Source of the DNA: Promicromonospora sukumoe 327MFSha3.1
Lineage (GTDB): Bacteria > Actinomycetota > Actinomycetes > Actinomycetales > Cellulomonadaceae
Direction: 5' to 3'
Length of the DNA: 64,000 bases
NCBI RefSeq assembly: GCF_000385135.1
Contig: NZ_ARQM01000010.1
Location: 1,488,001-1,552,000 of the forward strand
The notes beneath the pieces were generated by a model. The model did no database searches. It saw only the letters and a list, made by a program, of their open reading frames with translations, and was not told the origin of the DNA. Below are positions 50,390-64,000 of the stretch, in pieces (position 1 is the stretch's first letter; the number at the start of each line of letters is the position of its first letter). Made by a program: the position numbers and the translations under genes.

Positions 50390-51982
50390 ATGGAGATCAC
50401 ACGACGGACGGCCGTCACCGGGGCAGCGATTCTCGGCGCCGCCGCCGCGGTCGGACTGCCCACGACCGCGTCCGCCTCGGGGCGGACGGCGCCCGCAGCC
50501 CCCGCGCCCGGCACGGTCGAGCGCTGGGGCCTGCACGAGATCGTCCTGAACGGCCCCGACAAGGGCAACCCCTTCGTCGACGTCACGCTCGCCGCCGTGT
50601 TCCGCAGCGGGGACCAGCGGATCAAGGTGCCCGGCTTCTACGACGGCGAGGGCACCTACCGCATCCGGTTCTCGCCGCCGCAGACCGGTGCGTGGAGCTG
50701 GAGCGTCGAGAGCAACGTCCGGGCGCTGCGCAAGTCGGGACGGGTCACCGTGGTGGAGCCCGCCGCGGGCAACCACGGGCCGGTCCAGGTCGTGCCGGAC
50801 GGGTACCACTTCGTTTACGCCGACGGGTCGCCGTACCGGCAGATCGGCACGACGTCGTACTCGTGGGCGCTACAGGGCGACGAGAAGTGCGCGGTGACGC
50901 TGGACACGCTGAGCAAGGCACCGTTCAACAAGATCCGCATGCTGGTGTTCCCGAACGTCCCCGCGGCATACACCGACCCGTTCGTGCGCACGGGCACCGA
51001 GCCGGGCGCCTGGGACCCGACCCGGTTCGACCCCGCCTACTTCCGCAACTACGAGCGCCGCATCGCGCAGCTGCTGGAGCTCGGGATCCAGGCCGACGTC
51101 GTGCTGTACCACCCCTACGACGAGGACCGTGGCTACTCGGACATGGCGCGCGCCGACGACGAGCGTTACGTGCGGTACGTCTCCGCCCGGTTCGGCGCCT
51201 ACCGCAACGTGTGGTGGTCGATGGCGAACGAGTACGACGGCGTGGACAGCAAGTCGGTCGACGACTGGGACCACCTGTTCGAGGTGCTCGTGGCCGCGGA
51301 CCCGCACGACCGGCTGCGCTCGATCCACAACGCCAACATCTACTACGACGCCCGCAAGCCCTGGATCACGCACGCGAGCGTCCAGAGCGCCGGCGCCTCC
51401 ATGGACGGCCTGCGTGCCCACCTGCACCGGCAGTTCGCCCTCAAGCCGGTCGTGTTCGACGAGGTCGCGTACGAGGGCAACATCTCCGAGCGCTGGGGCC
51501 AGCTCTCCGGCGAGGAGATGACCAGCCGGTTCTGGAACACCTACGTGGGCGGCACCTACTGCGGCCACGGCGAGACGCTCAACCCCGAGCAGAAGCCCAG
51601 CATCTCGTGGCTCGGGCAGGGCGGGACCCTGAACGGCACCAGCGCCCCGCGCCTCGCCTTCCTCAAGCAGGTCATGGAGGACGGCCCGGCCCCCGGCATC
51701 AACGCCCTGCAGCCCGACTGGGACTACGAGATCGCCGGCGTCGACAACCAGTACTTCGTGAAGTACTTCGACGACGCCACCCCGACCGAGTGGGCGGCCG
51801 TGCTGCCCAACGGCGCCGGGCTGGCGTTCAAGGCCGACATCATCGACACCTGGAACATGACGGTCACGCCGGCCGGCACGTTCAACATGGCCAAGGTGCC
51901 CCGCGGCGCCCAGGACCCGGCGCGTCCGAACATCGAGCTGCCGGGCAAGCCCTGGATCGCGGTCAGGTTCACGAAGGCGTGA
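50390..51982 (+). CDS. Tat-exported glycoside hydrolase, DUF5060/DUF4038 type
   Basis: This 530-residue enzyme has a twin-arginine signal (TRRTAVTGAA, residues 4-13) and then an N-terminal beta-sandwich like DUF5060 (about 42-125, with VPGFYDGEGTYRIRFSPPQTGAWSW). A TIM-barrel region like DUF4038 follows (about 130-440), with candidate acid/base in WWSMANEYDG and nucleophile in VVFDEVAYEG, and a C-terminal beta domain like DUF5605. The apiosidase family GH140 also has a DUF4038 barrel, so this enzyme may remove side chains, possibly apiose, from pectin, but the family is broad. GGAGG lies before the ATG. It is coupled to a rhamnosidase gene (GTGA). Confidence 0.85.
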   Translation: MEITRRTAVTGAAILGAAAAVGLPTTASASGRTAPAAPAPGTVERWGLHEIVLNGPDKGNPFVDVTLAAVFRSGDQRIKVPGFYDGEGTYRIRFSPPQTGAWSWSVESNVRALRKSGRVTVVEPAAGNHGPVQVVPDGYHFVYADGSPYRQIGTTSYSWALQGDEKCAVTLDTLSKAPFNKIRMLVFPNVPAAYTDPFVRTGTEPGAWDPTRFDPAYFRNYERRIAQLLELGIQADVVLYHPYDEDRGYSDMARADDERYVRYVSARFGAYRNVWWSMANEYDGVDSKSVDDWDHLFEVLVAADPHDRLRSIHNANIYYDARKPWITHASVQSAGASMDGLRAHLHRQFALKPVVFDEVAYEGNISERWGQLSGEEMTSRFWNTYVGGTYCGHGETLNPEQKPSISWLGQGGTLNGTSAPRLAFLKQVMEDGPAPGINALQPDWDYEIAGVDNQYFVKYFDDATPTEWAAVLPNGAGLAFKADIIDTWNMTVTPAGTFNMAKVPRGAQDPARPNIELPGKPWIAVRFTKA

Positions 51983-54597
51983 GCCGCGTGCCGGGACAGG
52001 ACCGCGCCGTCGTCGTCGAGGCGCCGCGCGTCGAGCACCACCGCGAGCCGCTCGGCATCGGGGAGCGGACGCCGCGCCTGTCCTGGCGCGTTCTGTCGGC
52101 GCCCGAGGCGTGGCGGCAGACCGCGTACCGCGTCGACGTCGAGCGGGACGGCACGACGACGTCCCACGAGGTGCAGGGCCAGGACCAGGTGCTCGTGGCC
52201 TGGCCCGGCCGGCCCCTGCGCTCGCGGGACGTCGCCGTCGTCCGCGTCGCCGTGCGCGGCGCGGACGGGGCGTGGTCCGACCCGTCGGCCCCCACCACCC
52301 TGGAGGCGGGGCTGCTCGAACCCGCCGACTGGGTCGCGCGGCCCGTGGGCGCCACGCGGAACGAGAACCCGAACACCGACGACCGGCGCCCCTCGATCCT
52401 CCGCACGGAGTTCGAGGTGCGCCCCGGGCTCGTGCGCGCCCGGCTGTACGCCACGGCGCACGGGCTCCACGAGGCCGAGATCAACGGGGAGCGTGTCGGC
52501 GCCGACGTCCTCGCGCCGGGGTGGACCGTCTACGGCGAACGGCTGCGCTATGCCACCCACGACGTGACCGCGCTGCTGGAGCCCGGCGCGAACGCGATCG
52601 GGGCGTGGCTCGCCGACGGCTGGTACCGGGGCCGCCTCGGCTGGCGGGACGGGTTCCGCAACGTCTACGGCGACGACCAGTCCTTCCTCGCGCAGCTCGA
52701 GCTCGTGTACGCCGACGGCACCCGCGAGGTCGTGCCCACCGACTGGTCGTGGCGCTCGGCGCCGAGCCCGATCCTGCGCAGCGGGATCTACGACGGCGAG
52801 GATTACGACGCGCGCGCGGAGCAGCCCGGCTGGTCGCGGGCCGGCTTCGACGACTCCGCCTGGGACGGCGTGCAGGAGCGGCGCCGCGACCCCGCGACAC
52901 TCGTGGCCCCCACCGGGCCGCCCGTGCGCGTGACCCAGGAATTGCGGCCGGCCCGGGTGCTCACCGGTCCCAGCGGCTCGCGCATCCTCGACTTCGGCCA
53001 GAACCTCGTCGGCCGGGTGCGCCTGCGCGTCAGCGGCCCCGCGGGCACGACGGTTACCCTGCGCACCGCCGAGGTGCTGCAGGACGGCGAGATCTGCACC
53101 CGGCCCCTGCGCGCCGCGCGGTCCGCCGACAGCTACACGCTCGCCGGCCGCGCCGTCGAGGAGTGGGAGCCGAGGTTCACGTACCACGGCTTCCGCTACG
53201 CCGAGGTGTCCGGCTGGCCCGGCGACCTCGACGCGGACGTCGCCGAAGGCGCGCTCGTCGCCCGGGTCCTGCACACCGACCTGGAGCGCACGGGGTGGTT
53301 CGACTCCTCCGACCCGCTGCTGAACCGGCTCCACGAGAACGTGGTCTGGAGCATGCGGGGCAACTTCGTCGACCTCCCCACCGACTGCCCGCAGCGCGAC
53401 GAGCGCATCGGCTGGACCGGCGACCTCCAGGTGTTCGCACCGACGGCGTCGACCCTGTTCGACGTGTCCGGCATGCTGTCGGGCTGGCTGCGCGACCTCG
53501 CCGTCGAACAGCTCCCGGACGGCACCGTGCCCTGGTTCGTGCCGGTCATCCCCGCGGTGGACAAATGGACGCCGATGCGGCCCGGCGCCGCCTGGGGCGA
53601 CGCAGCGACGCTGGTGCCCTGGACGCTGTACGAGCGGTTCGGCGACGCGGGCGTGCTGCGCGCCCAGCTCGACAGCGCCCGGCGCTGGGTGGACCTGGTC
53701 GAGCGCCTGGCCGGCCCGTCGCGGCTGTGGGACACCGGGTTCCAGCTCGGCGACTGGCTCGACCCGGCCGCTCCGCCCGAGGATCCTGCCGACGCGCGGA
53801 CCGACCGCTACCTCGTCGCGACGGCGTACTTCGCGCGGTCGGCGCAGACGGTGGCGCGCATGGCCGAGGTGCTCGGCCTGGACGCCGAGCACGCCCGCTA
53901 CGCGGCGCTCGCGGACGAGGTGGCCGCCGCCTTCCGCGCGGAGTACGTGGCCGACGACGGGCGGATGTCGAGCGACGCCCCGACGGCGTACGCGCTCGCG
54001 CTGCGGTTCGGCCTGATCACCGACCCGGCCCTGCGCGCGGCCGCGGCGTCCCGCCTGGCCGAGCTCGTGCGCCAGGCGGGGAACCGCATCGCGACGGGCT
54101 TCGTCGGCACGCCCCTGGTCTCGGACGCGCTCAGCGCCGACGGCCACCTCGGCACGGCGTACGACCTGCTGCTCGAGCGCGGCTGCCCGTCCTGGCTGTA
54201 CCAGGTGGAGCAGGGCGCGACGACGATCTGGGAGCGGTGGGACTCGCTGCTCCCGGACGGCACGGTCAACCCCGGCCAGATGACGTCGTTCAACCACTAC
54301 GCGCTCGGCGCCGTCGCCGACTGGACGCACCGGGTGGTCGCCGGCCTGGCGCCCGCAGCGCCCGGCTACCGGCGCATCCGCTTCGCGCCTCGGCCCGGCG
54401 GCGGGCTCACGCACGCGGGCGCACGGCACCTGACGCCGTACGGCGAGACGTCGATCTCGTGGCGGATCGAGGGCGGCGGGCTGCGGGTCGAGGCCGTGGT
54501 GCCGGTCGGCGCCACGGCGGTCCTGGACCTGCCCGGGGCCGAGCCGGAGGAGCTGGACGCCGGGACCCACCGCCGGACGGCGCCGTTGCCCCGGTGA
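51979..54597 (+). CDS. Alpha-L-rhamnosidase (GH78)
   Basis: This 872-residue enzyme has the GH78 layout: N-terminal beta-sandwich domains (about 10-370, including FEVRPGLVRARLYATAHGLHEAEING), the catalytic (alpha/alpha)6 barrel (about 430-780), and a C-terminal beta-sandwich. The acidic catalytic block DCPQRDERIGWTGD (near 469-482) and the second acidic site, Glu752 in ATTIWERWDS, are present. No signal peptide is seen, so it should act on imported oligosaccharides. It releases terminal L-rhamnose, a sugar of rhamnogalacturonan. The GTG start overlaps the upstream gene's stop; a GTG nine bases later is possible. Confidence 0.94.
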   Translation: MSRVPGQDRAVVVEAPRVEHHREPLGIGERTPRLSWRVLSAPEAWRQTAYRVDVERDGTTTSHEVQGQDQVLVAWPGRPLRSRDVAVVRVAVRGADGAWSDPSAPTTLEAGLLEPADWVARPVGATRNENPNTDDRRPSILRTEFEVRPGLVRARLYATAHGLHEAEINGERVGADVLAPGWTVYGERLRYATHDVTALLEPGANAIGAWLADGWYRGRLGWRDGFRNVYGDDQSFLAQLELVYADGTREVVPTDWSWRSAPSPILRSGIYDGEDYDARAEQPGWSRAGFDDSAWDGVQERRRDPATLVAPTGPPVRVTQELRPARVLTGPSGSRILDFGQNLVGRVRLRVSGPAGTTVTLRTAEVLQDGEICTRPLRAARSADSYTLAGRAVEEWEPRFTYHGFRYAEVSGWPGDLDADVAEGALVARVLHTDLERTGWFDSSDPLLNRLHENVVWSMRGNFVDLPTDCPQRDERIGWTGDLQVFAPTASTLFDVSGMLSGWLRDLAVEQLPDGTVPWFVPVIPAVDKWTPMRPGAAWGDAATLVPWTLYERFGDAGVLRAQLDSARRWVDLVERLAGPSRLWDTGFQLGDWLDPAAPPEDPADARTDRYLVATAYFARSAQTVARMAEVLGLDAEHARYAALADEVAAAFRAEYVADDGRMSSDAPTAYALALRFGLITDPALRAAAASRLAELVRQAGNRIATGFVGTPLVSDALSADGHLGTAYDLLLERGCPSWLYQVEQGATTIWERWDSLLPDGTVNPGQMTSFNHYALGAVADWTHRVVAGLAPAAPGYRRIRFAPRPGGGLTHAGARHLTPYGETSISWRIEGGGLRVEAVVPVGATAVLDLPGAEPEELDAGTHRRTAPLPR

Positions 54598-54625: not shown

Positions 54626-57463
54626 TCAGCCGCGGGTCGCCTCCTCCAGCAGCTCCAGCACGTGCCGGTACGGGGCGCCGGTCGCCCGCGTCATGCCGAT
54701 CTCACAGGTCCGGTTGCACGAGGCGTGCGCCTCGCCGCCCAGGGCGCGCACCTCGGCCGCCTCCCGGGCGGTCGCGGACGCCGTCAGCTCGGGGTGCAGC
54801 ATGCCGCGGTCCCCGGCGAACGCGCAGCAGCCCCAGGCGTCGGGCACGGTCACCTCGTCGGCGACGGCGCGGGCCACCGTCGTCAGGTCGTCGTCGAGCC
54901 CGAGGCGGGCCGACGAGCAGGTGGGGTGCAGGGTCAGGGTCGCGAGGTACGGAGCCACGTCGAGCCGGGGGAGCAGCACCCGCGCCGTGAACCGGACGGC
55001 GTCCTCCACCTCGACGCCCGACTCCGCGAGGGTCTGCCGGAAGCCCTCCGTGCAGCTCGACGCGTCCGTGACCACGGGGAGGCGGCCGTCGTCCGAGGCG
55101 GCACGCAGGGCGTCCACGACCCGCGCCGCCATGGTGGCCCGGCCGGCGTCGTGCCCCTTGGACGCCCACGGGGTGCCGCAGCAGAGCCCGTCCGCCCCCG
55201 GCGGGACGACCAGCCGCACGCCCGCGCGCTCGGCCAGCAGGGCGAACGCCGCCGTGACCCCGACACCGGCACCCTCGGGCCCGGACCCCTCCGGCCCGAA
55301 CATCGTGTTGACGCACGCCGGGAGGTAGACCGCCACCGGCGCGTCCGGGCCCGACCCGACGGAGTCCCCGAGCCGGCGTCGGGCACTGCCGCCCGGCGGC
55401 AGGTCCGGGGTGTGGCGGGGGACCGTGTCCGCGCCGAGCACCGCCCGGGCCAGGTCCGTCGCGGCCGTGACCGGGGCGGACGGCAGCCGGCCGGCCAGGG
55501 TCAGCGCCGCCGACGCGCCGCGCGTCACGGCGCCCCACGACCCCGCCGCGGCGGTCCAGGCCGTGTCGAGCGCCGGCTGGCGCGCCTGGCCGCGCAGGCG
55601 CTTGACCAGGTCGCCGGTGTTGATGAGCACCGGGCAGGCCGTCTGGCACATCCCGTCCACGGCGCAGGTCTGCACCCCGGCGTACTCGTAGTCCCGGTCC
55701 AGCTCGCGCAGCAGCGCGGTGTCGCCGTCGGCCGCCGCGCGGGCCGCCGCGCGCCGGGTGACGATGCGCTGCCGGGGCGTGAGGGTCAGGTCCTTGCTGG
55801 GGCAGACCGGCTCGCAGTACCCGCACTCGACGCACCGGTCCACCTCGGCCTCGACGGGCTCGGCGAGCTTGAAGTTCCGCAGGTGCGCCTCGGGGTCGTC
55901 GTCGAGCACGACCCCGGGGCTGAGGATCCCCTCGGGGTCCACCAGCCGCTTCAGGGAACGCATCACGTCGTAGAGCTCGTCCCCGTACTGGCGCCGCACG
56001 AAGGGGGCCATGGCGCGGCCGGTGCCGTGCTCGGCCTTGAGGTTCCCGCCGGCGCCGAGCACGAGGTCGACGAGGTCCTCGGTGAACGCGGCCAGCCGGC
56101 CGCGCTGCTCGTCGGTCTCGAACCGGTCGGTCAGCATGAAGTGCACGTTCCCGTCCTTCGCGTGGCCGAAGATCACGCCGTCGCGGTAGCCGTGCCGCTC
56201 GAACAGGTCCTGCAGCGCGGCGCAGGTCGCCGCGAGCGCCGGCACGGGCACGACGACGTCCTCCAGCAGGGCGGTGGTGCCGCGCGGGCGCGCGCCGGCG
56301 ACCGCGGCGTACAGGCCCTTGCGCAGCTTCCAGGCGGTGGCGCGGTGGGCGGCGTCGGCCAGGAGCGGGGCGGGCCGCAGCAGCGGCAGCGCCGCGATCG
56401 CCCGGGATCCCGCGGCCGTCATGGTGTCGAGCTCGTCCGGCGTGTCCGACTGGTACTCGACCAGGAGCGCTGCCTCGGTGGTGACGTCCAGGCCGACGAG
56501 CGCCGCGGGCGGGTCGGCCTGCGCCTGGCCGACGCGGAGGCTGGTGGCGTCCATGAGCTCGAGGGTCGCGGCTCCGGTGGCGACGAGGTCGGGGAGCGCG
56601 CTGGTCGCGGCCTCCAGGTCGGGGAAGACCGCCAGCGCGGTCGCGGTGTGCGGGCGCAGCGGGACGGTGCGGAAGACCGCCTCGGCGACGAAGGCGAGGG
56701 TGCCCTCGCTCCCGACGACGAGGTGGGCGAGCAGCTGGGCGGGTGTCGCGTGGTCGAGGAACGCGTTGACGCCGTAGCCCATGGTGTTCTTCATGGCGAA
56801 GGCGCGCCGGATCCGGTCGACGGAGTCCGGGTTGCCCGTCACCCGGCGCCGGAGCCGGTCGAGGCCCTCGACCAGGTCCGGCTCGGCGGCTCGCAGCGCC
56901 GCGTCGGCGTCGGGGGCGCCGGTGTCGACGACGGTCCCCGACGGCAGCACGAGCACGAGCGACTCGAGGGTGGCGTAGGAGTTCTCGGCGGTGCCGCACG
57001 CCATCCCGCTGGAGTTGTTGCTGACGACGCCGCCCACGGTGCACGCGACCTCGCTGGCGGGGTCGGGGCCGAGCCGGCGGCCGTGCCGTCGCAGCCGCGC
57101 GTTGACCTGGCGCACCGTGGCACCCGGCTGCACGCGGACGCGGGCGCCGTCGTCCAGCACCTCGATCCGGGTGAAGGCGCGCCGGGTGTCGACCAGGATG
57201 CCGTCGGTGCCGGCCTGCCCCGACAGGCTGGTGCCGCCGGAGCGGAAGGTGACGTGCGCGCCGCTCGCGGCGGCGGCGCGCAGGACGCGGCCGACGGTCG
57301 CGGCGTCGTCGGCGACGACGACGGCCTGCGGCGTCAGCAGGAAGTGCGAGGCGTCGGCGGCGACGGCGACGCGGTCGAGCGCGCGGGTGCTCACGGACCC
57401 GCCGGGCCCGACGGCGTCGGCCACGGCGCGGGGGACGGAGCCTGTGCTGCTGAGGGTGGTCAT
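54626..57463 (-). CDS. Fused FAD-linked oxidase and Fe-S protein (GlcD-GlcF-like; glycolate or D-lactate dehydrogenase type)
   Basis: This 945-residue fusion has an FAD-binding PCMH domain (about 40-220, with RSGGTSLSGQAGTDGILVDTRR in pieces, GPDPASEVACTVGGVVSNNSSG) and an FAD-oxidase C-terminal domain (about 250-520, with GHAKDGNVHFML and EHGTGRAMAPFVRRQ). Two 4Fe-4S motifs (CVECGYCEPVCP near 543-554, CAVDGMCQTACP near 599-610) and cysteine-rich CCG regions near the end (CCGTPW, CSSARLG, CCAFAGD, CNRTCEIG) follow. It oxidises a 2-hydroxy acid such as glycolate or D-lactate at the membrane. GAGGAG precedes the ATG at 57463. It sits between sugar-degrading genes and is divergent from the GH2 gene. 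Confidence 0.92.
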   Translation of the reverse strand: MTTLSSTGSVPRAVADAVGPGGSVSTRALDRVAVAADASHFLLTPQAVVVADDAATVGRVLRAAAASGAHVTFRSGGTSLSGQAGTDGILVDTRRAFTRIEVLDDGARVRVQPGATVRQVNARLRRHGRRLGPDPASEVACTVGGVVSNNSSGMACGTAENSYATLESLVLVLPSGTVVDTGAPDADAALRAAEPDLVEGLDRLRRRVTGNPDSVDRIRRAFAMKNTMGYGVNAFLDHATPAQLLAHLVVGSEGTLAFVAEAVFRTVPLRPHTATALAVFPDLEAATSALPDLVATGAATLELMDATSLRVGQAQADPPAALVGLDVTTEAALLVEYQSDTPDELDTMTAAGSRAIAALPLLRPAPLLADAAHRATAWKLRKGLYAAVAGARPRGTTALLEDVVVPVPALAATCAALQDLFERHGYRDGVIFGHAKDGNVHFMLTDRFETDEQRGRLAAFTEDLVDLVLGAGGNLKAEHGTGRAMAPFVRRQYGDELYDVMRSLKRLVDPEGILSPGVVLDDDPEAHLRNFKLAEPVEAEVDRCVECGYCEPVCPSKDLTLTPRQRIVTRRAAARAAADGDTALLRELDRDYEYAGVQTCAVDGMCQTACPVLINTGDLVKRLRGQARQPALDTAWTAAAGSWGAVTRGASAALTLAGRLPSAPVTAATDLARAVLGADTVPRHTPDLPPGGSARRRLGDSVGSGPDAPVAVYLPACVNTMFGPEGSGPEGAGVGVTAAFALLAERAGVRLVVPPGADGLCCGTPWASKGHDAGRATMAARVVDALRAASDDGRLPVVTDASSCTEGFRQTLAESGVEVEDAVRFTARVLLPRLDVAPYLATLTLHPTCSSARLGLDDDLTTVARAVADEVTVPDAWGCCAFAGDRGMLHPELTASATAREAAEVRALGGEAHASCNRTCEIGMTRATGAPYRHVLELLEEATRG

Positions 57464-57494
57464 CGCTCTCCTCGTCCGGTTAGTCTGAGGGTAC

Positions 57495-57520
57495 ATTCAC
57501 AGAGGAATGATTATGCACCC
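57495..57520. promoter_or_regulatory. AT-rich divergent region with CATTC-ACAGAG-GAATG repeat
   Basis: The 72-base region between the divergent oxidase and GH2 genes contains the inverted repeat CATTC-ACAGAG-GAATG near 57495-57510, followed by ATTATG, in an AT-rich patch. It may be a regulator site serving both genes; no promoter pair is certain. Confidence 0.4.
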
Positions 57521-57535
57521 ACGATGGAGGGGCCG

Positions 57536-60484
57536 ATGACCGCTTACTGGGAGAGCACGGCGCCGGGGGCCGGGCGCAGGCCGGCACGCGCGGACGCCCC
57601 GAGCGACGCCCGCGTGCTGAGCCTCAACGGGACGTGGCGGTTCCGGCTCGCCCCGACCGCGGCCGGGACGGGCGCCGGGTTCGTCACCGACGGGTTCGAC
57701 GACTCGGGCTGGGACGAGATGCGGGTGCCCTCGCACTGGGTGCTGGAGGAGTTCACGCCGCTGGCCGGCGGTCCGCGCCGGTCGATGAAGGGCACCGCGG
57801 AGGGGCCGCTGTACACGAACACGGCGTACCCGATCCCGCTGGACCCGCCGCACGTCAGCACCGAGAACCCCACCGGCGACTACCGGCTGGAGTTCGAGCT
57901 GCCGGACGACTGGGGCGACAGCACGGTGCTGCGGTTCCAGGGCGTGGACTCGTGCGCCAAGGTGTGGCTGAACGGGACCGAGCTGGGCTGGTCCACCGGC
58001 AGCCGGCTCCCGTTCGAGCTCGACGCGCCCGTGCGGCCCGGCCGCAACGTGCTCGCGGTGCGGGTGCACCGGTGGTCGTCGGGCACGTACCTCGAGGACC
58101 AGGACATGTGGTGGCTGCCGGGGATCTTCCGGGACGTGGAGCTGATCGAGCGGCCGCCCGGGGCGATCGACGACCACCACGTGCACGCCGACTACGACCA
58201 CGAGAGCGGCACGGGCGCGCTCCGGGTCGACGCCACCACCGAGGCCGTGGTGGAGATCCCCGAGCTCGGCATCCGCATGGCCGCCGGCGAGACCGCCCGG
58301 GTCCCGGTCGAGCCGTGGAGCGCCGAGGTGCCGCGCCTGTACCGGGGCACGCTCCGGTCGGCCGGCGAGAGAGTCGAGCTCGCGATCGGGTTCCGCCACG
58401 TCGAGATCGTCGACGGCGTCTTCACCGTCAACGGGCGGCCCGTCACCTTCCGCGGCGTGAACCGGCACGAGCACCACCCGGACACCGGCCGCACGCTCGA
58501 CCGCGAGACCATGGTCCAGGACATCGTCGCGATGAAGCGCGCCAACGTGGACGCGGTACGGACCAGCCACTACCCGCCGCACCCCGAGTTCCTCCGGCTG
58601 TGCGACGAGTACGGCCTGTGGGTGCTGGAGGAGTGCGACCTCGAGACCCACGGCTTCATCTACGCCGGCTGGGAGAAGAACCCGCCCGCCGACCCGGCCT
58701 GGCGGGACGCGCTGCTCGACCGGGTGCGGCGCATGGTCGAGCGGGACAAGAACCACCCGAGCGTCGTCATCTGGTCGCTCGCCAACGAGAGCTGGACGGG
58801 CGAGACGTTCTCGGTGCTGCGGCAGTGGGTCGCCGACCGGGACCCCAGCCGCCCCGTCCTGTACGAGCGGGACCCGAGCTACCGCGACTCCGACTTCTAC
58901 TCCCTCATGTACCCCTCGCTGGAGGACCTGGACCGGATCGGCCGCCGCGCCGAGGACACGCCCGACGGCGTCACCGCCGCCGAGGACGAGCGACGCCGGT
59001 CGCTCCCGTTCCTGCTCGTGGAGTACGCGCACGCCATGGGCAACGGGCCCGGCTCGCTCCAGGACTACCGCCGCATCATGCTCGAGCACGACCGGATCTG
59101 CGGCGGGTTCGTCTGGGAGTGGATCGACCTGGGCATCAACGCCGTCACCGCCGACGGCACCGCGCACGTCATGCACGGCGAGGACATCGACTACGAGCCG
59201 TGCGGCGGGCGCTTCAACCTCGACGGCCTCCTCTTCAGCGACCGGACGCCGACCCCCGCCCTGGCCGAGCTGGCCAAGGCGTACGAGCCCGTGCGCGTGA
59301 CCGTCGGGTCCGACCACGTGCTGGTCGACAACCTGCGCCACACGACCGACACCGCCGACCTCCGGTTCACCTGGGCCCTGGCGGACGACGGCGAGCCCGT
59401 CGCCGACGGGACGCTCGACGTACCCGCGGTCGGCGCGGGCGGGCAGGGACGGGTCGCGGTTCCGGTGCCGACGCGCCAGGCGCGAGGCACCCTCGTGCTG
59501 ACGGTCGAGGCGCGGACCGCGACCGACGCGGCGTGGGCACAGGCGGGGCACGTCGTGGCGTGGGGGCAGCGGATCGTCTCCGAGCCGCCGGTGCGCTCGC
59601 TGCCGCGGCGGTCCGACGCCGGGAGCCGGGCTCCCGGCGGTGACGACGTGACCCTCGGGCCCGGCACGTTCGACGCCGCCACCGGCCGCCTGGTGCGCCT
59701 CGGCGACCTCGCGCTCGACGGGCCCGTGCTCGACGTGCACCGCGCGCCCACCGAGAACGACCACGGGCAGGGCGACCTGAACGACCTCGCGTCCGTCTGG
59801 TCCGCGACCGGCCTGGACCGGATGCTGCACCGCACGGACCTGGTCGACCGGGGCGACGACCACCTGCGGGTGGCCGGCCGGACGGCGCCCACGACGCACG
59901 CGCACGGCGTCGACTGGACGATGCTCTGGCAGGCCGACGGCGACGCCCTCGTGCTCACCGTCGACGTCGAGCCGACCGGCCCGTGGGCGGACACCCCGCA
60001 CCGGCACCGGGACATCTGGCTGCCCCGGCTCGGGCTGCGGCTGTCGCTGCCGGCCGCCTACGCGCGCGCCCGCTGGTTCGGGCGCGGGCCGGGGGAGACC
60101 TACGTCGACTCGTTCGAGGGGTCGCGGCTCGGCACGTTCGACCGCGCCGTCGACGACCTGCAGACCCCGTACCCGGTGCCGCAGGAGAACGGCAACCACG
60201 TGCAGACCCGCTGGCTGGAGCTGACGGGCCAGGACGTGCCGCCGCTGCGGGTCGACGGTGTCGACGGGCACCCGACGTTCGACTTCACCGCCCGCCGGTG
60301 GACCTCCCATGACCTGCAGCGGGCCCGCAAGCCGCACGACCTGCGGGACTCCGGCCGCGTGTGGCTCAACCTCGACCACCGGCAGCAGGGCATCGGGTCG
60401 GCGTCCGTGGGGCCGGCGCTGCCCGAGCGCTACCGCGTGCCGCGCGAGCGGACCACCTGGTCGGTCCGGCTGCAGGCCGGGTGA
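57536..60484 (+). CDS. Beta-galactosidase, GH2 (LacZ-type)
   Basis: This 982-residue enzyme has the LacZ-type layout: sugar-binding jelly roll (about 25-205), immunoglobulin-like domain, TIM barrel, and the C-terminal beta-galactosidase small-chain domain (about 700-980). The catalytic acid/base is Glu418 in SLANESW and the nucleophile is Glu496 in LVEYAHAMGN. GGAGG lies five bases before the ATG at 57536. No signal peptide is present, so it works on imported galactosides. It is divergent from the oxidase gene and converges with the kinase gene; their ends share a hairpin. Confidence 0.95.
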   Translation: MTAYWESTAPGAGRRPARADAPSDARVLSLNGTWRFRLAPTAAGTGAGFVTDGFDDSGWDEMRVPSHWVLEEFTPLAGGPRRSMKGTAEGPLYTNTAYPIPLDPPHVSTENPTGDYRLEFELPDDWGDSTVLRFQGVDSCAKVWLNGTELGWSTGSRLPFELDAPVRPGRNVLAVRVHRWSSGTYLEDQDMWWLPGIFRDVELIERPPGAIDDHHVHADYDHESGTGALRVDATTEAVVEIPELGIRMAAGETARVPVEPWSAEVPRLYRGTLRSAGERVELAIGFRHVEIVDGVFTVNGRPVTFRGVNRHEHHPDTGRTLDRETMVQDIVAMKRANVDAVRTSHYPPHPEFLRLCDEYGLWVLEECDLETHGFIYAGWEKNPPADPAWRDALLDRVRRMVERDKNHPSVVIWSLANESWTGETFSVLRQWVADRDPSRPVLYERDPSYRDSDFYSLMYPSLEDLDRIGRRAEDTPDGVTAAEDERRRSLPFLLVEYAHAMGNGPGSLQDYRRIMLEHDRICGGFVWEWIDLGINAVTADGTAHVMHGEDIDYEPCGGRFNLDGLLFSDRTPTPALAELAKAYEPVRVTVGSDHVLVDNLRHTTDTADLRFTWALADDGEPVADGTLDVPAVGAGGQGRVAVPVPTRQARGTLVLTVEARTATDAAWAQAGHVVAWGQRIVSEPPVRSLPRRSDAGSRAPGGDDVTLGPGTFDAATGRLVRLGDLALDGPVLDVHRAPTENDHGQGDLNDLASVWSATGLDRMLHRTDLVDRGDDHLRVAGRTAPTTHAHGVDWTMLWQADGDALVLTVDVEPTGPWADTPHRHRDIWLPRLGLRLSLPAAYARARWFGRGPGETYVDSFEGSRLGTFDRAVDDLQTPYPVPQENGNHVQTRWLELTGQDVPPLRVDGVDGHPTFDFTARRWTSHDLQRARKPHDLRDSGRVWLNLDHRQQGIGSASVGPALPERYRVPRERTTWSVRLQAG

Positions 60485-60488
60485 GCGA

Positions 60489-60535
60489 GGGTCCGGGACC
60501 TCAGCCCTCCGCGGGAAGGCCGAGGTCCCGGACCC
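60489..60535. terminator. Shared hairpin between convergent GH2 and kinase genes
   Basis: GGGTCCGGGACCTC and its exact complement (60522-60535) form a 14-base stem with a 19-base loop. The right arm lies inside the 3' end of the kinase gene, so transcripts from both directions end in the same structure. Confidence 0.65.
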
Positions 60536-61766
60536 GCTCGAACAGGTCGTCGTCGCCCACCTGGCCGCCCTTGAGCAGCAGCTCGGCGCCGTCGACCGCG
60601 GGGTCGCCGCTGTGCGCCCGGAGCAGCACGACGTTCGCCCACGGGTTCGCGGCGATCGAGAGCGAGTCCACGCCGAGCAGCGTCGTGACCCGGCTGGAGC
60701 TGTCACCGCCGCACACGATCACGCGGCGCGTGGCGCCCGCGCGCAGCACCCGGGCGACGGTCGCGGCCGCGGCGCTCGCGATCGTGTCCAGGGTCGCGGT
60801 GGGGGAGGGCTGCGCGAGGTCGGCGTCGTCCGAGGTCAGGGCGACGCTGCGGCCCTCCCGGAGCGCGGCCAGGACGTCGTCGTGCCCGTCCCCCGCCGCC
60901 AGCGGCCGCACCAGCCAGCCCGCCGCCGCTGCCCGGTCGGCCTGCCGCCGCGTCTGCGGGGACCGGCTGCCCGAGACGGCGAGGACCGGCCCGGCCGTCC
61001 CGGTCCGGGTCGGCAGCCCGACGGCGGGGCCGGGCGCCGCCGACGCCACCGCCTGGCTCAGCCCACCCGAGCCGATCGCGAACACGGGCGCCGCGGTCCC
61101 CAGGAGCGCCGCGCCGATCGCCGCCAGGTGCCCGTCGTCGAGCGCGTCGAGCACCACGGCGGCGGCGTCCGACCCCTCCAGCCACTCGGCGATCGCGCCC
61201 GGCGACCCGTAGGCGGTCCACGGCAGCGACCCGACCGTCAGCGCCGTCTGCCGCCCGAGGTGCACCGCGAGGTCCGACTCCGTCATGGGCGTCGAGGGGT
61301 GCGCCGACATCGTCGGCTGCCGGTCCAGCCGGTGGACCACGCCGCTCTCGGCCGCGAAGTGGTGGCCGAAGGCGGTGTACCGCCCGAAGTCCGGCTGGGC
61401 GAAGAGCAGCGGCACCGTCCGGTCGGCGACGATCTGCCGGCCGAGCTCGATGACCCGCCCGAGACTGCCCACCTCGGGGGAGGAGTCCGCCGTGGAGCAC
61501 GCCTTGTACTGCACCAGGTGGGGCCGCAGGGCGGCGAGACGGCGCAGCACGGGCGCGACCTCGCCGGCCAGCTCCGCCGTCGGCAGCGAGCGCGCGACGC
61601 CGGCCACGCCCACGACGTCGTGCGTCGCCGCGGCCTCGGCCAGCGTGGCGGGGTCGGGGAGGCCCACGAAGAGCCGCCCCGACCAGCCGCGCCGGGCGAA
61701 CTGCAGCAGCGCGTCGACGCTCCCGGTGAAGTCGTCGCCGTAGAACGCGACGCGCGGCTCACGCAC
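60501..61766 (-). CDS. Four-carbon acid sugar kinase family protein (DUF1537)
   Basis: This 421-residue kinase has the DUF1537 N-terminal domain, starting VREPRVAFYGDDFTGSVDAL, whose acidic DD lies at 11-12, and the C-terminal nucleotide-binding half, with VIVCGGDSSSRVTTLLG (about 340-356) and LLKGGQVGDDDLF. Family members phosphorylate acid sugars such as threonate, erythronate and 3-oxoisoapionate. Its GTG overlaps the stop of the RuBisCO-like gene by eight bases, so they are coupled. Beside a RuBisCO-like protein, this kinase most likely acts as 3-oxoisoapionate kinase (the OiaK role) in apiose catabolism; that is inference from context and family. Confidence 0.9.
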   Translation of the reverse strand: MREPRVAFYGDDFTGSVDALLQFARRGWSGRLFVGLPDPATLAEAAATHDVVGVAGVARSLPTAELAGEVAPVLRRLAALRPHLVQYKACSTADSSPEVGSLGRVIELGRQIVADRTVPLLFAQPDFGRYTAFGHHFAAESGVVHRLDRQPTMSAHPSTPMTESDLAVHLGRQTALTVGSLPWTAYGSPGAIAEWLEGSDAAAVVLDALDDGHLAAIGAALLGTAAPVFAIGSGGLSQAVASAAPGPAVGLPTRTGTAGPVLAVSGSRSPQTRRQADRAAAAGWLVRPLAAGDGHDDVLAALREGRSVALTSDDADLAQPSPTATLDTIASAAAATVARVLRAGATRRVIVCGGDSSSRVTTLLGVDSLSIAANPWANVVLLRAHSGDPAVDGAELLLKGGQVGDDDLFERVRDLGLPAEG

Positions 61767-63063
61767 GGGCGGGACCGAACCGCTCCGCGGCCCGGCGCAG
61801 CGGGCCGGAGGCGGCCAGGGCCTGCTCCAGGGTCTCGCCCCGCTCGGCCGACGCCCAGGCGTCACGCATGCTGGCCACCCCCGCGGCCGCTCCGTCCGGG
61901 TGCCCGTGGATGCCCCCGCCGGACAGGACCAGCAGATCGGTCGACCGCACGGCGGCATACGTGGCGTGCGCCAGCCCGCCCCACTGCCCCGAGGACAGCA
62001 CCGGGACGGTCGGCGTCAGGCCGAGCAGCGGGGTGCGCACGGCCTCGATCGAGTCGAGCACCTCGGCGTCCGACTCGTAGAACTTGTTGCTGATGCCGTT
62101 GGTGTGCAGGTGGTCGGCCCCGGCCAGGCGTGCCAGCTTCTGCCATGCCCGGAACGCTATCCCCACCTGGTCGCTGCGGGCCACGGACCCGAGCATGGCC
62201 CGGTGCCCGTGGATCGGCACCTGCGTGTGCCGGCGCAGCAGGTCGAGCCCGGCCAGCCCCATCAGGTTCACGCACGCCATGACGCAGGTGCCGCCGGCCG
62301 CGACGACGAGGTCGTGGTTGGCCTCGATCCGGTCGAGGTCGTCGGTGATGTTGAAGGCGTACATCGGCATCACGCCGGTGCGGTCCGCGTGCCGGTGCAG
62401 CACCGGCATCACGGCCTCGACCCGGGCCCGCAGCGGCGCGCTGGGCCCGTTGCCCTGCAGCTCGTCGTCCTTGATGAAGTCGATGCCGGCGGCGGCCAGC
62501 TCGCCGACCACCTCGGCGAGCTCGGCGGGGGCGAGCCCGATGCTCGGCTTGATGATCGTGCCGACCATGGCGCCGTCGGGCCGCCCCATGAGCCGGCGCG
62601 TGCCCTCGATGCCGAACGCGGGACCGCCGTAGCGCTCCTCGAACGGCGCGGGCAGCTCGAGATCGACCAGGCGGATCGCCGCGAGCTCCTTGATCTCGAA
62701 CAGGTTCCCGGCCACGGCGGCCAGCAGGTTCGGCATCGACGGGCCGAAGTTGTCGAGCGGGAAGCGCAGCCGCAGGACGGCGCGGCGCCGCGCCGCGGGG
62801 TCGCCCACGGAGCCCGGGAGCGGGGACGACCCCGTCAGCGGGATCTCCTGCACGCTCTCGACCTGCGCGGCGAACCGGGCGCGGACCTCGTCCGACTCGC
62901 GCTCGACGCGGACGAAGGTGCCGGTGGACTGCTCGCCGGCCAGGATCTCGGCCGCGCGCTCGAGCGCGATCGACGTCTCGATGACGTAGGTGGCGATGAC
63001 GTGGGCGCCTGTGTGGCGGGGCGCGTCGGTCACGGGGCGGGGTGCGGTCTCGTAGGTCGTCAT
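61759..63063 (-). CDS. RuBisCO-like protein, candidate 3-oxoisoapionate-4-phosphate decarboxylase or transcarboxylase/hydrolase
   Basis: This 434-residue protein has the RuBisCO large-subunit fold. Its active site retains IIKP (Lys172), GIDFIKDDE with the carbamylated Lys198 and metal ligands Asp200 and Glu201, HGHRAM (His287, Arg288), ADHLH (His318), Lys327 in the loop-6 region GISNKFYE, and the phosphate-binding SSGQWGG and SGGGIHGHPDG. It differs from true RuBisCO at several loops, so it is a RuBisCO-like protein. In known pathways such proteins beside a DUF1537 kinase are OiaX (decarboxylase) or OiaT (transcarboxylase/hydrolase giving 3-phosphoglycerate and glycolate). Its ATG has AGGA six bases upstream. 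Confidence 0.92.
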   Translation of the reverse strand: MTTYETAPRPVTDAPRHTGAHVIATYVIETSIALERAAEILAGEQSTGTFVRVERESDEVRARFAAQVESVQEIPLTGSSPLPGSVGDPAARRRAVLRLRFPLDNFGPSMPNLLAAVAGNLFEIKELAAIRLVDLELPAPFEERYGGPAFGIEGTRRLMGRPDGAMVGTIIKPSIGLAPAELAEVVGELAAAGIDFIKDDELQGNGPSAPLRARVEAVMPVLHRHADRTGVMPMYAFNITDDLDRIEANHDLVVAAGGTCVMACVNLMGLAGLDLLRRHTQVPIHGHRAMLGSVARSDQVGIAFRAWQKLARLAGADHLHTNGISNKFYESDAEVLDSIEAVRTPLLGLTPTVPVLSSGQWGGLAHATYAAVRSTDLLVLSGGGIHGHPDGAAAGVASMRDAWASAERGETLEQALAASGPLRRAAERFGPARA

Positions 63064-63071
63064 GGTCGTCC

Positions 63072-64000
63072 TCACCACGCCACGGGGAGCCAGACGGACA
63101 TCTCGCCCGCCCCGCGGTTGCCCCAGGAGAAGTACGGGACGAGCCGGGCCGGGACCGAGCGCAGCGGCCCGTCCTCCAGGTCGGCGTAGAGCGCACCGTC
63201 GTCCTGCACCGGCAGCTCCACGAGCTCGCCCTCCAGCGCGACCACGCGGACGTCGCCGACCGTGGCCTCGACCGGGTCCAGGGTCGTGCCCCGGCGCAGG
63301 GCGACCTGCTCCAGGCGGGCACCGGCGGGCAGGTCGGCGCTCTCGAGGCAGTACACGACCGGGCCGCGGCGCACGGTGACCTGGTTCGTCACCTCCTCGG
63401 CCAGCCGGTGGGCCCGCAGCGTGCGCACGGGCATGGGCAGGTCGAGGACGACGACGTCGCCCGCCGCCCAGGTCCGGTCGACGCGCGTGTAGGTGCCGGG
63501 CGCGGAGACCTCGACCCGCTCGCCGTTCACCGTCAGCGTCGCGCCCGACGACCAGCCGGGGATGCGCAGGTGCAGGGGCAGCGCGCCCGTCGCCTCCGTG
63601 ACGGTGAACGCGATGCGCCCGTCCCACGGGTAGTCGCTGTCCTCGCGCAGCGCCAGCCGGGCGCCGCGGCCGTCCGAGACGTCGACGTCGCTCCCGCCGT
63701 ACAGGTGCACGTACACGCCGTCGTCGGCGAGCGACGCCACCCGCTCGTGGAAGCTCGCGAGCACGCGCGCGATGTTCGGGGGGCAGCAGAAGCAGGTCAG
63801 ATAGCGCTGCCGCAGCCGCTCGTCCGACGGCGGCGGGTCGGGGACCACCACCTGCCCCGTGTCGCCCGGGCGGCGCAGGGGGTAGGGCAGCCCGCGCACC
63901 TGGCGCAGCGCGTTGGTGTAGAAGTACTCGGAGCCCGCCAGGCTGACGCTCCCGAGCAGGCTGTTGAAGGCGATCTGCTCGATGACGTCGGCGTAGCGCG
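63072..64000 (-). CDS. Beta-L-arabinofuranosidase, GH127 (N-terminus outside window)
   Basis: Only the C-terminal part, about 309 codons, is inside the window. It shows the GH127 zinc/cysteine motif TCFCCPPNIAR, where paired Cys residues coordinate zinc and one acts as the nucleophile, after SLAGSEYFYTNAL. A C-terminal beta-sandwich has LHLRIPGW, RVDRTWAAGDVVVLDLPM and VTVRRGPVVYCLE. The enzyme removes beta-L-arabinofuranose. It heads the minus-strand run of this gene, the RuBisCO-like protein (8 bases later) and the kinase, consistent with one operon. The start lies beyond base 64000. Confidence 0.93.
   Translation of the reverse strand, partial: RYADVIEQIAFNSLLGSVSLAGSEYFYTNALRQVRGLPYPLRRPGDTGQVVVPDPPPSDERLRQRYLTCFCCPPNIARVLASFHERVASLADDGVYVHLYGGSDVDVSDGRGARLALREDSDYPWDGRIAFTVTEATGALPLHLRIPGWSSGATLTVNGERVEVSAPGTYTRVDRTWAAGDVVVLDLPMPVRTLRAHRLAEEVTNQVTVRRGPVVYCLESADLPAGARLEQVALRRGTTLDPVEATVGDVRVVALEGELVELPVQDDGALYADLEDGPLRSVPARLVPYFSWGNRGAGEMSVWLPVAW

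Follow-up and report, generated by a model that had tools for sequence, protein, structure and literature searches.

In Promicromonospora sukumoe 327MFSha3.1, the gene of a RuBisCO-like protein (RLP) is coupled to that of a DUF1537 kinase, which raises the question of the substrate on which the two enzymes act. An earlier note on the window, i.e. the whole 64,000-nucleotide stretch of DNA analysed, had assigned the pair to an apiose pathway. Aceric acid (3-C-carboxy-5-deoxy-L-xylose) is a branched sugar of the pectin rhamnogalacturonan II and among the rarest plant cell wall sugars. Judging from sequence comparisons, we hold with somewhat more confidence than doubt that the RLP and the kinase catalyze two of three steps in the catabolism of aceric acid from rhamnogalacturonan II. 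Gene anatomy, family placement, a conserved cassette, its co-occurrence across genomes and the catalytic residues were observed directly. The features of the locus are compiled in Table 1.

Table 1. Genes at the RLP-kinase locus of P. sukumoe (positions counted from the first base of the window)
Feature	Position	Strand	Remarks
Apiosidase-fold enzyme (DUF5060, Apiosidase, DUF5605), GH140-like	50390..51982	plus	Pfam PF13204 E 7e-16
GH78 alpha-L-rhamnosidase	51979..54597	plus	Pfam Bac_rhamnosid6H E 3e-124
FAD-linked oxidase + Fe-S protein, 956 aa	54626..57496	minus	Pfam FAD-oxidase_C, FAD_binding_4, Fer4
GH2 beta-galactosidase-type enzyme	57509..60484	plus	Pfam Glyco_hydro_2_C E 3e-87; convergent with kinase
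DUF1537 kinase, OiaK-like, 421 aa	60501..61766	minus	GTG start; Pfam SBD_N + NBD_C
RLP, 434 aa	61759..63063	minus	ATG start; proposed aceric-ketose-phosphate transcarboxylase/hydrolase, OiaT-type chemistry
GH127, 662 aa	63072..65060 (3' part to 64000 within window)	minus	closest to BT_1003 aceric acid hydrolase
Asp/Glu-racemase-fold protein, fourth cassette gene	68409-69080	plus	beyond window

Both frames of the pair are open and coding, with a third-position GC of 0.98 for the kinase and 0.97 for the RLP, and the 8-base overlap described before (GTGCGTGA) was read directly. The kinase showed the two domains of the DUF1537 family, SBD_N (E 2e-44, 152.6 bits) and NBD_C (E 2e-16, 61.7 bits), both above the Pfam cut-offs. 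The RLP matched RuBisCO_large (E 6e-64) and RuBisCO_large_N (E 6e-13) and is the only RuBisCO_large family match in the whole genome. Its metal site Lys198/Asp200/Glu201 is retained as the earlier note had it, with K198, D199, D200 and E201 all there; both fold domains together with the departures K177 to S174 and H298 to L291 place the protein in form IV (RuBisCO-like). A role as MtnW or true RuBisCO was ruled out by the active-site table and by a score of 140 bits against the MtnW model TIGR03332 (cut-off 513.6). The best NCBIfam models were OiaX (NF042437, 393 bits) for the RLP and OiaK (NF042436, 260 bits) for the kinase. These are the nearest named families, as the assignment to OiaK/OiaX had implied, but each curated cut-off of 700 bits was missed. 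The OiaX model gave 400, 392 and 494 bits with the relatives from Jiangella, the Occultella group and Bacteroidota, respectively, and the 3-oxo-tetronate and D-threonate kinase models also scored on the DUF1537 kinase.

The remaining apiose genes had been predicted beyond base 64000. ApnL-like (216 bits) and ApnO-like PGDH_C proteins are indeed encoded at 81-84 kb, 18-21 kb beyond the pair, and because of them apiose catabolism is very probably encoded in the genome. They stand, however, in a separate operon with its own OiaC-like protein, a DAK kinase, TIM and RpiB. This OiaC-like branch rules out the pair as the sole apiose branch of the genome, and the earlier reading of the pair as the apiose step found no support, although the pair may have a second role in apiose use. 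Next to the pair, the 956-aa FAD/Fe-S protein is a candidate GlcD/YdiJ-like 2-hydroxyacid dehydrogenase; homologues lie near the RLP in eight other loci, with the same RLP in two of them. The GH2 gene recurs near the cassette in 13 of the 34 actinobacterial loci among the best 80 of 545 racemase-like relatives.

The GH127 gene, which the earlier note on the pair did not include, is read in the same direction immediately before the RLP gene, with its stop codon 8 bases ahead of the ATG of the RLP. RLP and kinase belong to a cassette of GH127, RLP, kinase and a protein with the fold of aspartate/glutamate racemases. The scan for this cassette was conducted with an alignment of the racemase-like protein (A1, 15 rows), built from loci found through the RLP, and yielded the best 80 of 545 relatives. 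Within 10 kb of the racemase-like gene, an RLP was present in 71 and RLP plus kinase in 70 of these 80 loci, a share that, given the origin of A1 and the choice of the best 80, holds for close relatives and not for the whole superfamily. In the same set, GH127 was found at 43 loci and any of ApnL, ApnO or OiaC at eight. When the RLP locus had no GH127 nearby, one was usually encoded elsewhere in the genome (26 of 29), and BT_1003-type GH127s were present in 68 of the 71 RLP genomes. The RLP-adjacent GH127s (42 loci) were typed by similarity to cassette GH127s at 459 bits or more, and three were compared with solved structures. Of eight loci without RLP, L168 had a BT_1003-like GH127 and L203 one in two pieces; matches in L162 and L215 were weaker (about 310 bits), and L190, L209, L210 and L212 had none. 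GH127 directly precedes RLP, kinase and racemase genes in seven Bacteroidota loci. Across the order, RLP and GH127 agreed in 394 of 396 genomes (both in 14, one only in two). Since the genomes are related, neither locus nor genome counts are independent samples. No dehydrogenase was common to the non-actinobacterial cassettes; an SDR occurred in 13 of the 34 actinobacterial loci of the 80. The constant partners are thus a BT_1003-type GH127 and the racemase-fold protein instead of ApnO, so the flanking genes point to an unrelated acid-sugar pathway, an outcome that the earlier note had named as speaking against its apiose reading.

In a phmmer search the GH127 matched 5mqo, a record titled 'Glycoside hydrolase BT_1003', with 620 bits versus 359 and 267 bits for other GH127 structures. 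A Jiangella orthologue shares 45% identity with BT_1003 versus 31-35% with the other solved GH127s, and BT_1003 was nearest in each of three lineages tested. Residues E333, C335, C425 and C426 are invariant in 26 sequences; these E-C and C-C residues we take to be the metal/nucleophile sites, as in HypBA1. Closest to BT1003 among the solved structures and with these residues kept, the GH127 is by homology likely the enzyme that releases aceric acid from rhamnogalacturonan II. BT1003 of Bacteroides thetaiotaomicron is an aceric acid hydrolase (PMC10850190; PMC5698469), and the substrates of its GH127 relatives can differ (PMC5698469). All ten full-length GH127s of non-actinobacterial loci look exported, and a hydrophobic N-terminus is absent in 32 of 32 actinobacterial ones. 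An acid symporter of the BASS/PanS type was present in 36 of 46 non-actinobacterial versus 0 of 54 actinobacterial loci (five genomes counted twice). Both patterns fit a pathway whose acid is the product of the GH127. To our knowledge, B. thetaiotaomicron is not known to have the cassette RLP.

The RLP keeps the equivalents of RuBisCO E60, N123, K175, H294, R295, H327, K334 and S379, and of the tabulated sites only W66 (Phe), K177 (Ser), H298 (Leu) and G380 (Ser) are altered. N123, H327 and S379 were found in the query and in all 87 other cassette RLPs counted (L169 and L197 left out), E60 in 86 of them, the last being gapped. In the three named OiaX proteins, E60, N123, H327 and S379 are replaced by D, G, Q and G/C, respectively, changes that the query does not share. 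The carboxylation/hydration residues expected of an OiaT-type enzyme are thus retained, but the same core set is kept in 12 of 12 other RLP-kinase rows and is not specific to apiose transcarboxylases; it argues against an OiaX-type loss and does not prove a hydrolase. In quick trees with SH-aLRT support only, in which the outgroup did not form one side of a branch, the query fell in an actinobacterial clade (52 rows, SH-aLRT 90) and the named OiaX proteins (L217, L218 and L229) in another clade of 60 rows (SH-aLRT 97); the trees held neither an MtnW nor a characterised OiaT row, and L204 (112 aa) was dropped. Model scores keep the RLP far from MtnW, in line with the earlier note, and the tree did not put it beside the named OiaX proteins; for the kinase, OiaK remains the best model, below its cut-off. 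That the cassette RLPs form one clade was rejected in a test on 95 of 124 rows, with a p-AU of 2e-5 when all 62 cassette rows were grouped and of 9e-6 when L169 and L197 were left out; the group had been chosen after the tree was seen.

The company of GH127 and racemase-like protein that the pair keeps in several phyla suggests a bacterial route for aceric acid, whose substrate, step order and products we infer as follows. GH127 would release aceric acid, and the racemase-fold protein would convert this aldose to the 2-ketose, by which the C3 carboxylate would become that of a β-keto acid. The kinase would phosphorylate the C1 hydroxyl of the aceric ketose, giving the RLP the substrate POCH2-CO-C(OH)(COO-)-CH(OH)CH3, the methyl homologue of 3-oxo-isoapionate 4-phosphate, POCH2-CO-C(OH)(COO-)-CH2OH. 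The RLP is predicted to decarboxylate the β-keto acid to an enediolate, return the CO2 to the neighbouring carbon and hydrolyse the C-C bond to 3-phosphoglycerate and lactate. We also considered a variant in which the RLP would only decarboxylate, and an aldolase would act on the resulting 5-deoxypentulose phosphate. In the ORF clusters that non-actinobacterial loci share, as far as annotated (part of the ORFs), there was no sugar-phosphate aldolase, but one Verrucomicrobia locus carries an RraA/aldolase-like gene. An aldose-to-ketose step by the Asp/Glu-racemase fold has no precedent known to us. L-arabinose isomerase was hit weakly by the racemase-like profile (E 0.17), which we treated as chance. 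Several points weigh against aceric acid, among them the SDR in part of the actinobacterial loci, the case of B. thetaiotaomicron, which has BT1003 but is not known to have the RLP, and the best HMM matches, which are apiose enzymes. L-lactate would be expected, yet a GlcD-type oxidase lies near the RLP in P. sukumoe and the eight other loci. This oxidase family usually acts on glycolate or D-2-hydroxyacids.

Kinase and RLP could also accept both keto acids, the one formed from aceric acid by the racemase-like isomerase and, where ApnO is present, the one that this enzyme helps to make from apiose. The two proposed substrates are one methyl group apart, the RLP keeps every catalytic residue kept by seven non-OiaX apiose-locus RLPs, and five Jiangella-group genomes with RLP have ApnO and no OiaC, so that their RLP may serve apiose; such dual use is nevertheless unlikely, being unnecessary in P. 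sukumoe and 9 of 22 other actinobacterial RLP genomes, which have OiaC (at least 48% identity). We give a smaller chance to OiaK and an apiose RLP (OiaX or transcarboxylase/hydrolase) acting purely on 3-oxo-isoapionate 4-phosphate from the ApnL/ApnO operon 20 kb away. The NCBIfam matches, ApnL- and ApnO-like genes within the same 40 kb, an oxidase suited to a glycolate product and the Jiangella-group genomes speak for it, but the cut-offs are missed by more than 300 bits and an OiaC-like branch is part of the apiose operon itself. Moreover, ApnO occurs in 1 of 40 non-actinobacterial versus 16 of 23 actinobacterial RLP genomes, 34 of the 43 ApnO genomes of the order have no RLP, and five cassette loci carry the transketolase-type apiose genes AptAB/AplK. 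Equally improbable is the breakdown of another rhamnogalacturonan II acid or a non-aceric GH127 product, with the racemase-fold protein as a decarboxylase/epimerase having one cysteine, as arylmalonate decarboxylase has, and the RLP as an isomerase/enolase: DUF1537 kinases do take several acid sugars, but the GH127 is nearest BT_1003 in all lineages tested and the full carboxylation/hydration site would be needless for an enolase.

We are evenly divided on a broader proposal, namely that Actinomycetota, Bacteroidota, Planctomycetota and Verrucomicrobiota share a three-enzyme aceric acid route (Asp/Glu-racemase-fold isomerase, DUF1537 kinase and RLP transcarboxylase/hydrolase). This route would go together with GH127, in Bacteroidota also with an acid symporter, and would have drawn its RLP from two or more distinct lineages. 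No aceric acid catabolic pathway was found in the open-access literature, viewed mostly at title or listing level. If the aceric acid reading is true, it supplies a catabolic pathway for this sugar, a new RLP substrate beside the apiose intermediate and a novel type of reaction for the Asp/Glu-racemase fold; it also corrects what is probably a mistaken assignment of RLP-kinase pairs like this one to apiose.

Carter et al. reportedly described in 2018 a D-apiose pathway with OiaK as 3-oxo-isoapionate kinase and OiaX as 3-oxo-isoapionate-4-phosphate decarboxylase. The name OiaT presumably belongs to the transcarboxylase/hydrolase RLP of Xanthobacter. The OiaK/OiaX pathway and the reaction of the Xanthobacter RLP, a 3-oxo-isoapionate-4-phosphate transcarboxylase/hydrolase, are described in the literature (PMC6302742). 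Like OiaK and OiaX, the pair studied here couples an RLP to a DUF1537 kinase of the same families, and its proposed substrate is a one-carbon homologue; identity is about 40%, however, and ApnO, ApnL-like, Gfo/Idh/MocA and transporter genes stand in the two OiaX loci whose neighbourhood is complete, whereas the cassette holds GH127 and the racemase-fold protein. With OiaT the cassette RLP would share decarboxylation, recarboxylation and hydrolysis, and its residues are as in the seven non-OiaX apiose-locus RLPs that served as the comparison set, but 3-phosphoglycerate and lactate are predicted where OiaT yields glycolate. The racemase-fold protein differs from the aspartate/glutamate racemase superfamily, which has two catalytic cysteines: C79 is its sole invariant cysteine and the second site reads Q187-A-S (alignments of 15 and 46 rows), the cysteine of allantoin racemase aligning with this Gln. 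In contrast to BT1003, a known GH127, the cassette GH127 comes together with the genes for RLP, kinase and racemase-fold protein.

The gene for the RuBisCO-like protein (RLP) and the DUF1537 kinase gene share 8 bases, and the RLP retains the metal site K198/D200/E201, both as described in the earlier note. It is the single RuBisCO_large match in the 6.25 Mb source genome. The gene is patchily distributed, since none of 12 other genomes of the genus contained a match (E up to 1e-20) and the eight other matches in 221 genomes of the family were just 31-34% identical. Relatives at 75-84% identity occur in Microbacterium, Ruania and Jiangella. Gene calling was extended over the 36 kb that follow base 64000.

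Features in and beyond the window (numbering continued past 64000)
Feature	Position	Strand	Remark
GH140-like protein (DUF5060/Apiosidase/DUF5605)	50390-51982		
GlcD-type FAD oxidase fused to Fe-S domains	54626-57496		
DUF1537 kinase	60501-61766	minus	
RLP	61759-63063	minus	
GH127	63072-65060	minus	stop 8 bases from RLP start
ABC sugar transporter	65218-68384		
Asp/Glu-racemase-family gene	68409-69080		
SorC-type regulator	69070-70029		
SDR, epimerase family	70119-70946		L009:10119-10946
GH106	70951-74259		
Second ABC-type system	74261-77299		
Second apiosidase-fold enzyme	77361-78977		GH140-like (DUF5060/Apiosidase/DUF5605)
GH42-like gene	78974-81040		assigned by eye
ApnL-like	81071-82879	minus	only NCBIfam match ApnL, 216 bits (cut-off 750)
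PGDH_C protein (ApnO-like)	82889-83743	minus	
AP_endonuc_2 protein (OiaC-like)	83740-84537	minus	
TIM	84534-85295	minus	
RpiB	85295-85762	minus	
DAK kinase	85764-87497	minus	

The RLP-kinase pair is best read as part of a pathway for aceric acid from rhamnogalacturonan II (RG-II), an assignment we hold to be somewhat better than an even bet. Of 20 related loci, 17 had a GH127 close to RLP and kinase and 18 had the racemase-family gene, with ApnO in the fetched stretch of one. As a bait other than the RLP, an alignment of 15 racemase-family proteins was scanned against 84,980 species genomes. Among the best 80 of 545 relatives, the racemase-family gene had within 10 kb an RLP in 71 cases, RLP plus kinase in 70, GH127 in 43 and any of ApnL, ApnO or OiaC in eight. 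These 80 came from Actinomycetota, Bacteroidota (Flavobacterium, Sphingobacterium, Runella, Pedobacter, Hymenobacter and others), Planctomycetota and Verrucomicrobiota, with single assemblies of Acidobacteria, Ramlibacter and, going by its title, Planococcus; seven Bacteroidota loci carried GH127, RLP, kinase and racemase consecutively. GH127 was near the RLP in 42 loci (at least 459 bits, the lowest score belonging to a cut gene). A GH127 scoring 487 bits or more to a Chitinophagaceae GH127 was present elsewhere in the genome for 26 of the 29 remaining RLP loci and not found for L169, L179 and L197, so that 68 of these 71 RLP genomes contained the enzyme. Of the 48 loci L169-L216, 35 contained a fifth gene, a BASS/PanS-type acid symporter, which mostly followed the racemase-family gene directly. 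GH127 came next among the gene clusters there (12 loci), and every other cluster reached eight loci at most. On a Rufibacter tibetensis plasmid typed as mobilizable (L134), the RLP-kinase-racemase-symporter cassette is accompanied by pectinesterase and GH28 genes. In a verrucomicrobial locus (L196:3323-7441), RraA-like, altronate-dehydratase-like, SDR and enolase-superfamily-cluster genes, probably of sugar-acid catabolism, lie upstream of the RLP.

One fixed set of 396 genomes from the order contained RLP (at least 48% identity) and GH127 (E up to 1e-110) in 15 genomes each: both in 14, RLP alone in G225, GH127 alone in G345 (375 bits) and neither in 380. ApnO occurred in 43 genomes, nine of them with an RLP (that of G492 at 35% identity). 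The association with RLP was phi 0.93 for GH127 and phi 0.31 for ApnO; p-values are too small among related genomes, and the contrast between the two is what counts.

For a transketolase route of apiose use, the genes aplK, aptA, aptB and apsI have been named (PMC13001218). Homologues of AptA (48-52%), AptB (39-43%) and AplK (35-41%; all versus E. coli SE15) share a locus with RLP and kinase in L149, L189, L194, L205 and L216. In the Sphingobacterium loci (L189, L194, L216) they lie immediately upstream of the cassette, one cluster thus holding routes for two RG-II sugars. To our knowledge this route forms no 3-oxo-isoapionate, which leaves the RLP in all five loci without an apiose substrate.

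The source genome very probably has a separate apiose operon. The overlapping run at 81071-87497 (L010:1071-7497), read with the names and families that we take for ApnO, OiaC, LerK and LerI, apparently encodes a complete oxidative D-apiose route; its OiaC branch would consume 3-oxo-isoapionate. The sole erythrulose-phosphate enzyme model to score was DerI (142 bits, cut-off 240). Apiose genes had been forecast beyond base 64000, where the ApnL-, ApnO- and OiaC-like genes indeed lie. The apiose pathway proposed for this actinobacterium stands, yet the main task of the pair is probably another. The two GH140-like proteins lie on either side of the cluster.

Ranked next, though unlikely, is a use of the pair for both aceric acid and apiose. 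Among 23 actinobacterial RLP genomes, 16 had ApnO and 12 OiaC (10 at 48% identity or more); ApnO occurred in one of 40 non-actinobacterial ones. In the Jiangella group the pair may also serve apiose, because five genomes have ApnO and lack OiaC, and ApnO sits beside an SDR in the four fetched stretches (all with GH78). The SDR at 70119-70946 is a candidate SDR-type apiose dehydrogenase, since these genomes carry a homologue of it (67-69%) at a distance of 1-3 kb from ApnO; proteobacterial loci have Gfo/Idh/MocA instead. The GlcD/Fe-S oxidase, found near the RLP in the source genome and in eight other actinobacterial loci (two of these, L077 and L172, share one and the same RLP), may oxidise a hydroxyacid freed by the RLP. 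Against the aceric acid reading, enzymes of this family point to glycolate or D-hydroxyacids as substrates, a better match to apiose than to L-lactate. Neither GH127 nor the racemase-family gene was found in the RLP-kinase loci of Streptomyces (L131), Rhodococcus (L221) and several Proteobacteria. On a Croceibacterium plasmid (L226:7181-11534) a divergent GH127 (26%) adjoins RLP and kinase, and no racemase-family gene was found in the stretch; this cluster possibly serves yet another sugar acid. Such loci must have other tasks.

A tree built from 124 RLPs placed the query among actinobacterial sequences (a clade of 52 rows, SH-aLRT 90), 50 of which come with the racemase-family gene. Named OiaX and further apiose-locus RLPs belong to the second RLP-kinase clade (60 rows, SH-aLRT 97), together with the cassette RLPs of Bacteroidota, Planctomycetota and Verrucomicrobiota; the latter (38 rows, SH-aLRT 98) are sister to OiaX (96). 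A tree constrained to unite the cassette RLPs was rejected; hence either the same partners were combined with two or more RLP lineages, or the cassette is the ancestral arrangement, from which apiose use arose. The RuBisCO residues E60, T65, N123, K175, K201, D203, E204, H294, R295, H327, K334 and S379, in what we take to be spinach numbering, are retained by the query and 87 further cassette RLPs, apart from one row with Val at R295 and one row gapped at E60 and T65. The set is also kept in 7/7 apiose-locus RLPs not called OiaX and 12/12 other RLP-kinase rows. Retention is thus the usual condition, from which OiaX departs: in the three OiaX, E60, N123, H327 and S379 are replaced by D, G, Q and G/C, respectively. 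PMC6302742 reports decarboxylation and transcarboxylation/hydrolysis of 3-oxo-isoapionate 4-phosphate for Agrobacterium and Xanthobacter RLPs, and we infer that the kept RuBisCO set would accompany the transcarboxylation/hydrolysis chemistry.
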